DNA from: Pseudomonas sp. R5-89-07
Lineage (GTDB): Bacteria; Pseudomonadota; Gammaproteobacteria; Pseudomonadales; Pseudomonadaceae
DNA: 64,000 bases
Reading direction: 5' to 3'
Assembly (NCBI RefSeq): GCF_003851685.1
Contig: NZ_CP027727.1
Coordinates: 5,642,001-5,706,000 of the forward strand
Notes under the pieces: generated by a model
Database searches by the model: none
What the model saw: only the letters and a program-made list of their open reading frames with translations
What the model was told of the DNA's origin: nothing
Translations under genes and position numbers: made by a program
In this document: positions 26,638 through 33,967 of the stretch, in pieces
How the letters are laid out: every line of letters begins with the position of its first letter
Position numbering within the stretch: position 1 is the stretch's first letter

Positions 26638-27996
26638 TCAGACGGCGAAGAGCAGGAATTCCCGCTCCCACGAACTGATCACGCGCTTGAAGTTTTCATG
26701 CTCGGCCCGCTTGACCGCGACATAGCCTGTGATGAATTTCTGACCCAGGTATTGCTCGATGGTCTTGCTGTTTTCCATGCGTTCCAGTGCGTCTTCAATG
26801 GTCAACGGCAGGCGCAGGTTGCGGCGCTCGTAGCCACGGCCCACCACGGGGGCGCTCGGGTTGTGGCCTTCGACCATGCCGATATAGCCACACAGCAAAC
26901 TGGCGGCAATCGCCAGGTACGGGTTGGCATCGGCGCCCGGCAAGCGGTTTTCCACGCGGCGGTTCTGCGGGCCGGCATCCGGTACGCGCAGGCCCACGGT
27001 GCGGTTTTCTTCGCCCCACTCCACGTTCACCGGCGCCGAGGTGTCGGGCAGGAAGCGGCGGAATGAATTCACGTTGGGGGCGAACAAAGGCAGCAATTCG
27101 GGGATGAATTTCTGCAGGCCACCAATGTGGTTAAGGAACAACTGGCTCATGGTCCCGTCTTCATTGGAGAAGACGTTCTTGCCGGTGGCGATGTCGATAA
27201 TGCTCTGGTGCAGGTGCATCGCACTGCCGGGCTCGCCGGTCATCGGCTTGGCCATGAAGGTGGCGGCCACGTTGTGCTTGAGCGCGGCCTCACGCATGGT
27301 GCGCTTGAACACCAGGATCTGGTCGGCCAGGGACAGCGCATCGCCATGACGGAAATTGATTTCCATCTGGGCGGTGCCGTCTTCGTGGATCAGCGTGTCG
27401 AGGTCCAGCTCCTGCAGTTCGCACCAGTCGTAGACGTCTTCGAACAGCGGGTCGAATTCGTTGGCAGCTTCTATAGAGAAGGACTGGCGACCGGTCTCCG
27501 GGCGACCGGAGCGGCCAATCGGCGGTTGCAGCGGGAAGTCCGGGTCTTCGCAGCGCTTGGTCAGGTAGAACTCCATCTCTGGCGCCACGATGGGCTGCCA
27601 GCCGCGGTCGGCGTAGAGCTTGAGGACTTTCTTGAGCACGTTGCGCGGCGACAGCTCGATCGGGTTGCCTTGCTTGTCGTAGGTGTCGTGGATCACCTGG
27701 GCGGTCGGCTCGATGGCCCAGGGCACCAGGAATACCGCGTTCTGGTCGGGGCGGCAGATCATGTCGATGTCGGCCGGGTCGAGCAATTCGTAATAGATGT
27801 CGTCTTCGACATAGTCGCCGGTTACGGTCTGCAGCAGCACGCTTTCGGGCAGGCGCATGCCTTTTTCGGCGATGAACTTGTTGGTCGGCGAGATCTTGCC
27901 CCGGGTGATGCCTGTGAGGTCGCCAATCATGCATTCGACTTCTGTGATCTTGTGGTCTTTCAACCAATCGGTGAGCTGGTCGAGGTTGTTACTCAT
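26638..27996 (-). CDS. spuB: Gamma-glutamylpolyamine synthetase (SpuB)
   Basis: A 452-residue glutamine-synthetase-fold ligase: N-terminal beta-grasp (ECMIGDLTGITRGK), ATP/glutamate blocks (PEMEFYL, HEDGTAQMEINF, GSAMHLHQS) and the C-terminal NRRVENRLPGADANPYL. Glutamylation of polyamines by such paralogues opens the spermidine branch of catabolism. The start is MSNNLDQLTD. It is the first gene of the spuBCDEFGH transcript here because spuA is absent upstream. A sigma54-like promoter lies 117 bp upstream. Confidence 0.92.
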   Translation of the reverse strand: MSNNLDQLTDWLKDHKITEVECMIGDLTGITRGKISPTNKFIAEKGMRLPESVLLQTVTGDYVEDDIYYELLDPADIDMICRPDQNAVFLVPWAIEPTAQVIHDTYDKQGNPIELSPRNVLKKVLKLYADRGWQPIVAPEMEFYLTKRCEDPDFPLQPPIGRSGRPETGRQSFSIEAANEFDPLFEDVYDWCELQELDLDTLIHEDGTAQMEINFRHGDALSLADQILVFKRTMREAALKHNVAATFMAKPMTGEPGSAMHLHQSIIDIATGKNVFSNEDGTMSQLFLNHIGGLQKFIPELLPLFAPNVNSFRRFLPDTSAPVNVEWGEENRTVGLRVPDAGPQNRRVENRLPGADANPYLAIAASLLCGYIGMVEGHNPSAPVVGRGYERRNLRLPLTIEDALERMENSKTIEQYLGQKFITGYVAVKRAEHENFKRVISSWEREFLLFAV

Positions 27997-28112
27997 AAAT
28001 GCCTCTGGGCTGGGTTTCCTGGCATCCATTAAAAAGCCAGGCGTTGGTTGACGCAGCATCCGCGTCGTTTGTTCACTCAGGGTAGGAGCTTACCTGCCAT
28101 TTGCCCAAGGGT

Positions 28113-28605: not shown

Positions 28606-29982
28606 ATGTCGGTACCCCCGCGTGCCGTTCAGCTTAACGAAGCGAACGCGTTCCTTAAGGATCATCCTGAGGTTCTGTACGTAGACCTTCTAATTGCGGA
28701 TATGAATGGTGTGGTGCGCGGCAAGCGCATCGAACGCACCAGCCTCCACAAGGTTTACGAGAAGGGCATTAACCTGCCTGCCTCTTTATTTGCCCTGGAT
28801 ATCAACGGCTCTACGGTGGAAAGCACCGGCCTGGGCCTGGATATCGGTGATGCTGACCGAATCTGTTATCCAATCCCCGACACCCTGTGCAATGAGCCCT
28901 GGCAAAAGCGCCCAACCGCGCAACTGCTGATGACCATGCACGAACTGGAAGGTGAGCCGTTCTTCGCCGATCCTCGCGAAGTGCTGCGCCAAGTCGTGAG
29001 CAAATTCGACGACATGGGCCTGACCATCTGCGCTGCCTTCGAGCTTGAGTTCTACCTGATCGACCAGGAGAACGTGAACGGCCGGCCACAACCGCCCCGC
29101 TCGCCGATTTCCGGCAAACGCCCGCACTCGACACAGGTCTACCTGATCGACGACCTCGACGAATACGTCGACTGCCTCCAGGACATTCTGGAAGGTGCCA
29201 AAGAGCAAGGCATTCCGGCCGACGCCATCGTCAAGGAAAGTGCCCCGGCGCAGTTCGAAGTGAACCTGCACCACGTCGCCGACCCGATCAAGGCATGCGA
29301 CTACGCGGTACTGCTCAAGCGCCTGATCAAGAACATCGCCTACGACCATGAGATGGACACCACCTTCATGGCCAAGCCTTACCCAGGTCAGGCAGGCAAC
29401 GGTTTGCACGTACACATCTCCATTCTGGACAAGGACGGCAAGAACATCTTTGCCAGCGAGGATCCCGAGCAGAACGCCGCATTGCGTCACGCGATCGGCG
29501 GTGTGCTGGAGACCCTGCCCGCCCAGATGGCGTTTCTGTGCCCCAACGTCAACTCCTACCGTCGTTTTGGCGCACAGTTCTACGTGCCGAACTCGCCGTG
29601 CTGGGGCCTGGACAACCGCACCGTGGCGATTCGCGTACCGACCGGCTCGTCCGATGCGGTGCGTATCGAACACCGCGTGGCCGGTGCCGACGCCAACCCT
29701 TACCTGCTGATGGCTTCGGTCCTGGCGGGCGTGCACCACGGTCTGACCAACAAGATCGAACCGGGCGCTCCCGTTGAAGGCAACAGCTACGAGCAGAACG
29801 AACAGAGCCTGCCGAACAACCTGCGCGATGCCCTGCGCGAGTTGGATGACAGCGAGGTGATGGCCAAGTACATCGATCCTAAATACATCGATATCTTCGT
29901 TGCCTGTAAGGAAAGTGAGCTGGAGGAGTTCGAACACTCCATCTCCGACCTTGAGTACAACTGGTACCTGCATACCGTTTAA
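28606..29982 (+). CDS. spuI: Gamma-glutamylpolyamine synthetase (SpuI)
   Basis: A 458-residue glutamine-synthetase-like enzyme, paralogous to SpuB: N-terminal YVDLLIADMNGVVRGKRIE, ATP/glutamate residues in CAAFELEFYL, ESAPAQFEVNLHH and NGLHVHISI, and C-terminal VRIEHRVAGADANPYL. It activates putrescine-type amines by gamma-glutamylation with ATP. Divergent from spuB as in P. aeruginosa. The transcript ends at a strong intrinsic terminator 18 bp downstream. Confidence 0.92.
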   Translation: MSVPPRAVQLNEANAFLKDHPEVLYVDLLIADMNGVVRGKRIERTSLHKVYEKGINLPASLFALDINGSTVESTGLGLDIGDADRICYPIPDTLCNEPWQKRPTAQLLMTMHELEGEPFFADPREVLRQVVSKFDDMGLTICAAFELEFYLIDQENVNGRPQPPRSPISGKRPHSTQVYLIDDLDEYVDCLQDILEGAKEQGIPADAIVKESAPAQFEVNLHHVADPIKACDYAVLLKRLIKNIAYDHEMDTTFMAKPYPGQAGNGLHVHISILDKDGKNIFASEDPEQNAALRHAIGGVLETLPAQMAFLCPNVNSYRRFGAQFYVPNSPCWGLDNRTVAIRVPTGSSDAVRIEHRVAGADANPYLLMASVLAGVHHGLTNKIEPGAPVEGNSYEQNEQSLPNNLRDALRELDDSEVMAKYIDPKYIDIFVACKESELEEFEHSISDLEYNWYLHTV

Positions 29983-30000
29983 GCGGTTGCTGCAAAAAAG

Positions 30001-30037
30001 AACGCCGCAGGCCTTATAGGCTGCGGCGTTTTTTTAT
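30001..30037 (+). terminator. Intrinsic terminator of spuI
   Basis: Perfect 10-bp stem AACGCCGCAG / CTGCGGCGTT with a 10-nt loop and a run of seven T (the last two stem bases included), 18 bp after the spuI stop. Confidence 0.92.
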
Positions 30038-30077: not shown

Positions 30078-30134
30078 GAGCAGACAACACATCTTCCTGC
30101 TCATACAATGCCCGCTGCCCTGTAGGAGACTTCC

Positions 30135-30763
30135 ATGCCCCCCCCCCCGCCGCCCCTCGCAAACCACGCGCCCGCAGCCAGGCCCGGATCGACGCAATCC
30201 TGGACGCCGCCCGTGCCTTGCTGGCGACCGAAGGCGTGGCCGGCTTGTCGATCTACAGCGTGGCCGAACGGGCGCAGATCCCGCCATCGTCGGTGTATCA
30301 CTTTTTCGCCAGCGTGCCAGCGTTGCTGCAAGCCTTGACGGCCGATGTGCACGCGGCCTTTCGCGCAGCCATCCAGGCGCCCATCGAGCATGATTCACTC
30401 CAGACGTGGCGCGACCTGTCCTGCATCGTCGAGCAACGTATGCTCAGCATCTACAGCCACGACGCCGCCGCCCGCCAGTTGATCCTGGCCCAGCATGGGC
30501 TGACCGAAGTCACCCAGGCGGATCGCCAGCATGACCTGGAACTGGGGGTGCTGATGCTGGAGGTGTTCAACCGCCACTTCGACGTGCCAAGCCTGCCGAA
30601 CGATGTGGATGTATTTGCCCTGGCACTGGAGCTGAGCGACCGCGTGTATGCGCGTTCGGTGCATCAGCATGGGCAGATTACGCCGCGCATGGCGCAGGAA
30701 GGGATGCGGGTGTTTGATGCGTATGTGGGGCTTTATTTGCCGGTGTATTTGCCCAAGCGGTGA
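30135..30763 (+). pseudogene. TetR/AcrR-family regulator, out of frame at an 11-C tract
   Basis: From about 30161 the frame encodes a normal TetR regulator: RKPRARSQARIDAILDAARALL, then the helix-turn-helix LSIYSVAERAQIPPSSVYHFFASVPALLQAL and a ligand-binding domain ending PVYLPKR. The only credible start, ATG 30135 with TAGGAGAC 4 bp upstream, runs straight into 11 consecutive C (30138-30148) and is in the wrong frame. With 12 or 9 C it would give an intact protein (209 residues with 12 C). It may be a phase-variable regulator, a recent frameshift or a base-calling error. The downstream TTG at 30218 would remove part of the DNA-binding domain. Confidence 0.75.
30138..30148 (+). repeat. Poly(C)11 tract at the regulator start
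   Basis: Eleven C immediately after the ATG codon. Homopolymers of this length are prone to slipped-strand change. The frame of the regulator body needs a C count of 9, 12 or 15. Confidence 0.95.
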
Positions 30764-30787: not shown

Positions 30788-30806
30788 CATCGGGGGCAAG
30801 CTGTTC
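30788..30806. repeat. Left half of a REP split by the IS element
   Basis: CATCGGGGGCAAGCTGTTC: the REP arm up to the loop, ending in the GTTC that is repeated at the far side of the insertion sequence. Confidence 0.75.
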
Positions 30807-30839
30807 TGGTCAAGTTTTTCCGGACACCGATTACGGTGA

Positions 30840-31987
<1,148 letters not shown>

Positions 31988-32052
31988 TTGGAACCTCCTG
32001 ATTGGGCGAATCATATCGCCCTTAAGAGGTGTCCGGGATCATTAGGCCAGTT

Positions 32053-32118
32053 CAAGCCCCCCTCCCACATTTGGATCTGTGAATACATTCAAAGTGTGGG
32101 AGGGGGCTTGCCCCCGAT
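32053..32118. repeat. Right half of the split REP plus a tail-to-tail REP
   Basis: CAAGCCCCCCTCCCACAT (32053-32070) followed by TGTGGGAGGGGGCTTGCCCCCGAT (32095-32118) with a 24-bp spacer. The pairing is outward, opposite to the usual REPIN. Confidence 0.8.
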
Positions 32119-32375: not shown

Positions 32376-33182
32376 TTATTGAGCCCAACGCAATTGCGTC
32401 GGCAGCGGTGAAACAGGTTCGGGTTCCGGCGGTGAGCCGGGCAGCGACAGCACGCGGTTGAGTACTTCGGCTTCCAGCGCAGCCAGGCGATGTGAGCCAC
32501 GGGCGCGGGGGCGTGGCAAGTCGACGCTGAGGTCCAGGCCGATTTCGCCGTCTTCGATCAGGATGACCCGGTCGGCAATCGCCACGGCTTCACTGACGTC
32601 ATGGGTGACCAGCAGCACGGTAAAGCCGTGTTTCTGCCACAGGTTTTCGATCAGTTGCTGCATCTCGATCCGTGTCAGGGCATCCAGCGCGCCCAGCGGC
32701 TCATCGAGCAGCAACAGACGCGGCTGGTGAATCAAAGCGCGGGCCAGGGCAACGCGCTGCTTCTGGCCACCGGACAAGGCCGCCGGCCACTCATCGGCGC
32801 GCTCGGCAAGGCCCACGGCCTCCAACGCTTCCAACGCCTTGGGGCGCCAGTTGCCCTTGAGGCCCAGGCCGACGTTGTCGATGATTTTCTTCCACGGCAG
32901 CAGGCGCGCTTCCTGGAACATCAACCGCGTGTCTTCAATCGCCTCATGCAGCGGCGCGGAGCCCGCCAGTAGCTCGCCGCCACTGGCTTTGTCCAGGCCT
33001 GCCAGCAGGCGCAGCAAGGTACTTTTGCCACAGCCGCTGCGGCCAACCACGGCCACGAACTGGCCGGCCGGGATATGCAGATCGATTGCCTTGAGCACTT
33101 CGCGAGCACCGAAGGACTTGCGCAACTTGCGCACCGCCAGGGGGATGCCCTTGAGCAGGCGCGGGGGTTGTTGAGCCGTCAT
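32376..33182 (-). CDS. ssuB: Aliphatic sulfonate ABC transporter ATP-binding protein
   Basis: A 268-residue ATPase: Walker [10 protein letters not shown] near residue 48, Q-loop FQEARLLPW (typical of SsuB/TauB/NrtD), signature [15 protein letters not shown], Walker B LLLLDEP, H-loop [11 protein letters not shown]. The start at [10 protein letters not shown] overlaps the ssuC stop by 4 bp (ATGA). It energises sulfonate uptake with SsuA and SsuC. Confidence 0.94.
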
Positions 33183-33967
33183 GCCGCACCTCCCTTGTTC
33201 ACTTGATACGCCGGGTGCCAGCGCAGCCATACCCGCTCCAGGCCGCGCGCCGCCAGGTCGGCCAGCTTGCCGAGGATCGCGTACATCACAATGGCCAGCA
33301 CCACCACGTCGGTCTGCAGGAACTCGCGGGCATTCATCGCCAGGTAACCGATGCCGGAACTGGCCGAGATCGTTTCCGCCACAATCAGCGTCAACCACAT
33401 GAAGCCCAGGGCAAAGCGCACGCCCACCAGGATCGACGGCAATGCGCCCGGCAGGATGACTTGCCAGAACAGGCTGAAACCGGACAACCCGTAGCTGCGC
33501 GACATTTCCACCAGTGCCGGGTCGACGTTGCGGATGCCGTGGTAGGTGTTCAGATAAATCGGGAACAAGGTGCCGAGGGCCACCAGGAAAATCTTCGCGG
33601 TCTCGTCAATCCCGAACCACAGGATCACCAGGGGAATCAGCGCCAGGTGCGGCACGTTACGGATCATCTGCACCGAGCTGTCCAGCAAGCGTTCGCCCCA
33701 CTTCGACAGGCCGGTGATAAAGCCCAGCGCCAGGCCGATGCTGCCACCAATCACAAAGCCCAGGCCCGCGCGCCAGCCACTGATCGCCAGGTGCGTCCAG
33801 ATTTCGCCGCTGCGGATCAGGTTGATGCCGGCCTCGATGACCGCGCTGGGCGCCGGCAGAATGCGCGTCGACAACCAACCCGCCGTTACCGACAGCTGCC
33901 ACACCGCCAGCAATAGGATCGGCAGCACCCAGGGCGCCACGCGATGACTGAATTTTTCCAGGTTCAT
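33179..33967 (-). CDS. ssuC: Aliphatic sulfonate ABC transporter permease
   Basis: A 262-residue permease with about six transmembrane helices and the EAA-like loop [34 protein letters not shown], as in the SsuC/TauC family. It starts 10 bp after the ssuD stop and overlaps ssuB, so it is a tightly packed operon. Confidence 0.94.

Follow-up and report, generated by a model that had tools for sequence, protein, structure and literature searches.

Does a tract of 11 C directly behind the start codon of a tetR gene make that gene a phase-variable switch, or does it mark a gene that was lost in one lineage? We addressed this question at a locus in the window (the whole stretch of 64,000 nucleotides from Pseudomonas sp. 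R5-89-07 that was analysed), for which a preliminary description had suggested a possible switch. The reading that we favour, with confidence somewhat better than even, is that a conserved Pseudomonas TetR/AcrR gene carries here a recent OFF allele, restricted to one lineage, that would be prone to slippage and perhaps revertible.

An 11-C tract separates the start codon of tetR from its reading frame

The elements at the 5' end of the gene, all on the forward strand, are the following.
30081..30109, + strand: promoter-like site CAGACA-17-TACAAT just 5' of tetR, with 9 of 12 matches
30124..30128, + strand: ribosome-binding site AGGAG, 6 nt 5' of the ATG
30135..30137, + strand: tetR start codon ATG, a conserved start that is out of frame with the body here
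30138..30148, + strand: C11 tract, exactly 11 C directly 3' of the ATG
30135..30338, + strand: out-of-frame product from the ATG, 67 codons, with its stop at 30336-30338
30161..30763, + strand: intact TetR/AcrR-family body, 200 codons and a stop (TetR_N, 2.3e-9)
30218..30220, + strand: TTG, the earliest start codon in the body frame; initiation here loses 19 body residues

The C11 tract is followed by GCCGCCCCTCGC, which runs into the TetR/AcrR body. The body frame contains no stop between 30161 and its TGA at 30761-30763, and it is displaced by -1 (+2) from the frame of the ATG at 30135. No ATG, GTG or TTG was found in the body frame 5' of 30161, back to a stop 28 codons upstream. The TetR_N match begins before the TTG at 30218, and 7 of the 19 residues lost by initiation at this codon belong to the domain. 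As in a simple-sequence-repeat phase-variable locus, a homopolymer was found to set the frame, with C11 lying between the ATG and the body and the two being in different frames. Ribosomes starting at the ATG would yield an unrelated peptide of 67 residues. We therefore propose that the regulator would be absent and that its targets, perhaps its neighbours, would be misregulated.

The body matches PF00440 (TetR_N) over residues 13-59 with 37.3 bits against a cut-off of 24 (2.3e-9), which places it in the TetR/AcrR family. It could be assigned to no named subfamily with a known target or ligand among the NCBIfam models, 10 of which match and none above its cut-off. A search against solved structures returned 30 matches (best E 1.5e-5), nearly all of them inside the first 105 residues.

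The start codon is conserved in relatives, and the upstream signals in many of those aligned

We collected 109 relative loci, comprising those from the 29 best of 392 other matched genomes and a further 80, the best among 345 confirmed matches, and removed duplicates to obtain 101 distinct sequences. All 101 have an in-frame ATG 7, 8 or 9 codons 5' of the body, and on this ground we regard the ATG at 30135 as the real start. The TACAATG stretch, the AGGAG and the ATG were invariant across 14 aligned upstream regions of our own choosing, while the leader differs in at least four other relatives (L092, L103, L117, and L132). The promoter scan near tetR gave one site of the quality of CAGACA-17-TACAAT, with 0.3 expected. 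By eye, a GC-rich hairpin with T bases behind it could be made out 3' of the glutamine-synthetase gene and 5' of tetR, at about 30000-30035; the scan listed no terminator, and the loop of the hairpin, judged by eye, exceeds the rule of the scan. The promoter-like site together with the hairpin and its T bases suggests that tetR probably has its own promoter.

The preliminary description had stated that the ATG and C11 are out of frame with the TetR body and that the ribosome site lies here and not downstream. Our analysis bears out both statements. The sequence, the frames and the lack of an in-frame upstream start agree with the first, and the position of the AGGAG, with no such site seen by eye before the TTG at 30218, with the second. 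The same description had considered that the frame break might occur together with other disabling mutations; no further lesion was seen in the body.

The tract is found in one genome

As the preliminary description had proposed, we compared the length of the tract in related strains. Within the 27 bases 5' of the body, C runs reach a maximum of 2 to 6, depending on the sequence, among the 101 distinct relative sequences. None of them has a C run of more than 6 at the tetR start, and the tract is thus not retained in these relatives. Their first codons are C-rich yet interrupted by other bases, whereas the C11 of the window is unbroken. A frequent form in close relatives is ATG-ACN-ACC-CGC-CCC-GCC. 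In Pseudomonas sp. W4I3 (L056), which was the nearest relative found, the gene begins with ATG-CCG-CCC-CGC-CCC-GCC, in frame and with its C run interrupted by G bases. The motif AGGAGACNTCCATGCCCCC, the search for which is able to fit only relatives having that leader, was found in a single one of 398 genomes of the genus, namely that of the window. Of 977 protein-cluster matches, 120 representatives were listed, and none of these 120 starts with MPPP, as an in-frame poly-proline version would; the clusters were built at 90% identity and hide strain variants. We rejected a conserved contingency locus, given the interrupted run of W4I3, the single genome with the motif, and the lack of runs above 6 in the relatives.

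Origin and age of the frame break

The tetR gene of W4I3 is intact, and its TetR body is 99.5% identical to that of the window at the protein level. Long alignment blocks between W4I3 and the window are 93-96% identical, with pieces at 92-97%. In the first codons, W4I3 has two interrupting G bases that the window lacks, and the lengths differ by one base. Because position 3 of codon 2 is variable among relatives, the common ancestor may have had C at this position. In such an ancestor, loss of the sole remaining G would lead to C11 and to the frame break in a single event, with the base loss fusing two shorter C runs and thereby creating the tract and breaking the frame together. We infer that this one-event origin, by loss of one interrupting base, is the simplest history, the ancestral base being unproven. 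With such an origin, an in-frame uninterrupted tract need never have existed. A two-step origin, in which substitutions lengthened the run and slippage followed, is possible, and an ancestor with G would need at least two events.

We then analyzed the substitutions in the 200-codon body, which is separated from that of W4I3 by 26 synonymous nucleotide differences and by a difference at 1 amino acid. A change was assigned to the window lineage when the W4I3 codon was common to at least 5 of 9 outgroups, which were picked from the 29 best of 392 other matched genomes. Nine changes in the body were assigned in this way and all nine were synonymous; a stricter rule (at least 8 of 9 outgroups) gave 4 window-lineage changes, also all synonymous. 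The sole amino-acid difference, at codon 100, seems to lie on the W4I3 side; 1 of the 9 outgroups nevertheless has the W4I3 codon. For a neutral synonymous fraction of 0.25-0.30, the probability that 9 out of 9 changes are synonymous is 3e-6 to 2e-5, which argues for a recent lesion. Judged from this pattern of substitution, tetR is a gene that was functional over most of the history of the lineage, so that the frame break either occurred recently or has not ended the use of the gene. As expected of a loss-of-function allele, a single disabling lesion was found in a gene that is intact in relatives. Relaxed constraint after the lesion was not seen, with 0 of the 9 window-lineage changes altering the protein, and this lack of amino-acid change would be compatible with a lesion of very recent date or with a gene that continues to function.

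Long C/G runs and the accuracy of the assembly

A first-order Markov model, based on the dinucleotide content of the window, gave the expected numbers of C/G runs. For runs of at least 11 bases, the expectation is 0.07 in the window and 6.5 in the genome. The genome contains 10 C/G runs of at least 9 bases compared with about 86 expected, and long C/G runs appear to be avoided in it. Two of the ten are 11 long, and the one other than the tetR tract is located in intergenic DNA that we take to be REP-like.

Among the runs read as coding, two are in frame (L040 and L043) and two are at a frame break (C11 and probably L044). The two in-frame runs, L040 (own genome, C1:919242) and L043 (C1:1616883), are a G10 and a G9 that are probably coding, and the gene containing the former is, by its look, what we take to be a fimbrial chaperone gene. 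L044 (G000:C1:2954460-2954469) is a 10-base G/C run, probably coding, that seems to lie at the frame break of a glycosyltransferase-like gene. When the two pieces of this gene were searched separately, the second matched PF04488 (3.2e-9) and PF12919 (4.7e-6), and the first had no Pfam match. The frame break at L044 would fit either errors in tract length or real instability.

To look at the assembly more widely, we compared 68 reading frames of W4I3 with the window. Of these, 59 match the window, and 55 of the 59 are covered over at least 95% of their length in one frame, by a test that is blind to N-terminal breaks (tetR itself passes, with 200 of 209 residues). All 9 unmatched reading frames lie beyond the stretch aligned to the window. 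Of the 4 partial ones, two lie at the limits of the region compared, a third (144 aa) is without its first 11 residues, and the fourth is a doubtful ORF of 103 aa. Most of the 65 alignment gaps against W4I3 seem, by eye and without a count, to fall outside genes or in a variable gene at about 38.0-39.4 kb. We rejected a broad background of frameshift errors in the assembly, as none was seen over 64 kb against W4I3 with a 95% cut that lets an N-terminal break pass.

Slippage, mismatch repair and comparison with known systems

The mutS and mutL genes are both open and above cut-off. No hypermutator background is obvious from these two repair genes, and the slippage rate is therefore expected to be modest. 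In the excerpted text of PMC4702332, longer homopolymers were reported to mutate faster in mismatch-repair-deficient P. aeruginosa, G:C runs more than A:T runs, and repair-proficient lines had just one indel in a homopolymer, so slippage may be rare here. The excerpted text of PMC3764201 likewise describes longer runs, G:C foremost, as mutating faster in Pseudomonas, mainly without mismatch repair. Homopolymer back-mutation has been proposed as a switch in P. aeruginosa by the authors of PMC4702332. We infer that C11 would slip more often than sequence of the usual kind and that revertants should appear, though rarely. Reversion by slippage in this strain is plausible.

The frameshift switch bvgS of Bordetella pertussis involves a poly-C tract. 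It is alike in having a frameshift in a regulatory gene and differs in being a demonstrated switch of a two-component system, whereas a switch at tetR would be putative. The mga gene of group A Streptococcus (excerpts of PMC10330708) has poly-C within a transcriptional regulator gene, where one-base changes break the frame. Its tract is located near the 3' end, is shared by one gene cluster, is polymorphic among isolates and was shown to revert, whereas the tract in the window tetR is located at the 5' end and in one genome. The homopolymer indels of P. aeruginosa (excerpts of PMC4702332, PMC3764201, and PMC8115180) are similar in that indels in runs, G:C foremost, inactivate or alter genes. 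They differ in that they are observed mutations, mostly from mutators, and that the runs concerned are shorter (5-7 bases, with one of 9), whereas mutS and mutL are open here and the run itself is new. In its excerpted part, PMC8115180 emphasises intergenic runs. The 5'-end homopolymeric tracts described for gene inactivation (excerpts of PMC2831843) share the 5' position and a frameshift that abolishes the protein, but the positional enrichment reported there is of poly-A and poly-T, in contrast to the poly-C of tetR. No phase-variable TetR gene in Pseudomonas was recognised among the titles and abstract openings of a partial literature search.

Probably a lost gene rather than a dedicated switch

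Because relatives have a normal gene at this position, inactivation in one lineage, and not a dedicated switch, is the most likely explanation. The property resembling a switch would be a by-product of the mutation, and no sign of selection for this property was seen. Of the suggestion of a phase-variable switch in the preliminary description, the broken frame, the position of the start and a tract prone to slippage are supported. A switch as an evolved feature is not, with 0 of 101 distinct relative sequences having a run above 6 and 1 of 398 genomes having the motif. As the allele is carried by one genome only, sequencing error and within-population switching both keep some probability. The former would be an error of assembly or base calling in the C-rich stretch, with the true tract in frame or interrupted and the gene intact. 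It is unlikely in our judgement. In its favour, C/G runs as long as C11 are difficult to call, tetR otherwise looks fully constrained, and another coding G10 run of the same assembly seems to be at a frame break. Against these points, 55 of 59 W4I3 frames are covered at 95% or more, though the test would miss an N-terminal break, and the two other coding runs, G10 and G9, are in frame. Miscounted Cs would also be insufficient, since the interrupting base or bases must be lost as well. Expression of the C11 allele by other means, through ribosomal or transcriptional slippage or through initiation at the TTG at 30218, with enough TetR being made, is very improbable. The strong constraint on the body is in line with it, as is a protein cluster, P0010 (Pseudomonas sp. 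R3-18-08, 181 aa), that starts at the residue equivalent to this TTG. Proline CCC runs are known for +1 slippage, but from the ATG this would lead into the wrong frame, that of the body being -1 (+2), and a start at the TTG removes 7 TetR_N residues and has no AGGAG-like site before it by eye. The annotated length of the R3-18-08 regulator could reflect a 5' lesion that arose independently, or no more than the choice of start in the annotation.

A functional phase-variable switch, in which slipped-strand mispairing toggles the regulator in populations of this strain and is kept by selection, is quite unlikely. C11 directly after the ATG, the intact body and the strong constraint would all suit such a switch, and it has precedents in the poly-C of mga, a shown switch (excerpts of PMC10330708), and in the proposal of homopolymer back-mutation as a switch in P. 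aeruginosa (excerpts of PMC4702332). However, the tract is lacking in all 101 distinct relative sequences and the motif in 397 of 398 genus genomes, and 0 of the 120 listed cluster representatives (of 977) start with MPPP, with the caveat that 90% clustering hides strain variants. Open mutS and mutL genes, and a genome with fewer long C/G runs than expected, also argue against it. We give little credence to a bolder form of this idea, in which a core regulator of fluorescens-group-like Pseudomonas would newly have become a contingency gene through one base loss, with slippage toggling it despite intact mutS and mutL and perhaps acting on sulfur or polyamine genes. If the tract does switch, it would show how a GC-rich bacterium can gain a contingency locus in a single step, and it would provide a concrete site at which to measure slippage in a Pseudomonas with intact mutS and mutL. 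If it does not, the locus would be a clean case of a frame broken by a homopolymer, in which annotation might wrongly see a shortened gene or a long-standing pseudogene.

Gene neighbourhood and an adjacent IS3-family element

The following features surround tetR.
28606..29982, + strand: glutamine-synthetase family gene (Gln-synt_C, 5.4e-112), the conserved upstream neighbour
30802..32054, - strand: IS3-family element, 38 bp past the tetR stop in REP-like intergenic DNA, with a 3-bp AGC duplication and ends placed by eye
32376..33398, - strand: ssuB (aliphatic sulfonate ABC transporter ATPase), over cut-off, the conserved downstream neighbour

The tetR gene is flanked by genes of the glutamine-synthetase family on one side and by the ssu sulfonate genes on the other. 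The glutamine-synthetase neighbour was found on the same strand, less than 600 nt upstream and more than 60% identical in 76 of 80 loci. The ssuB neighbour was found on the opposite strand and more than 60% identical in 78 of 80 loci, and it is downstream in the 11 rows viewed. Neither glutamine-synthetase gene (26638-28059 and 28606-29982) reached a specific NCBIfam cut-off. Farther upstream are polyamine-transporter-like genes, mostly below specific cut-offs, and an aminotransferase gene; downstream, ssuB, ssuC, ssuD, and ssuA are above cut-off. A search of the plasmid collection gave no match. From position, we would guess that tetR targets the polyamine or the sulfonate genes.

The IS3-family element is absent at the corresponding site in W4I3. 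It was rejected as a cause of the 5' lesion, as it sits 3' of tetR and leaves the 5' end untouched. The first 29 bases of the element match exactly at three other sites in the genome, which suggests that it is probably multi-copy.
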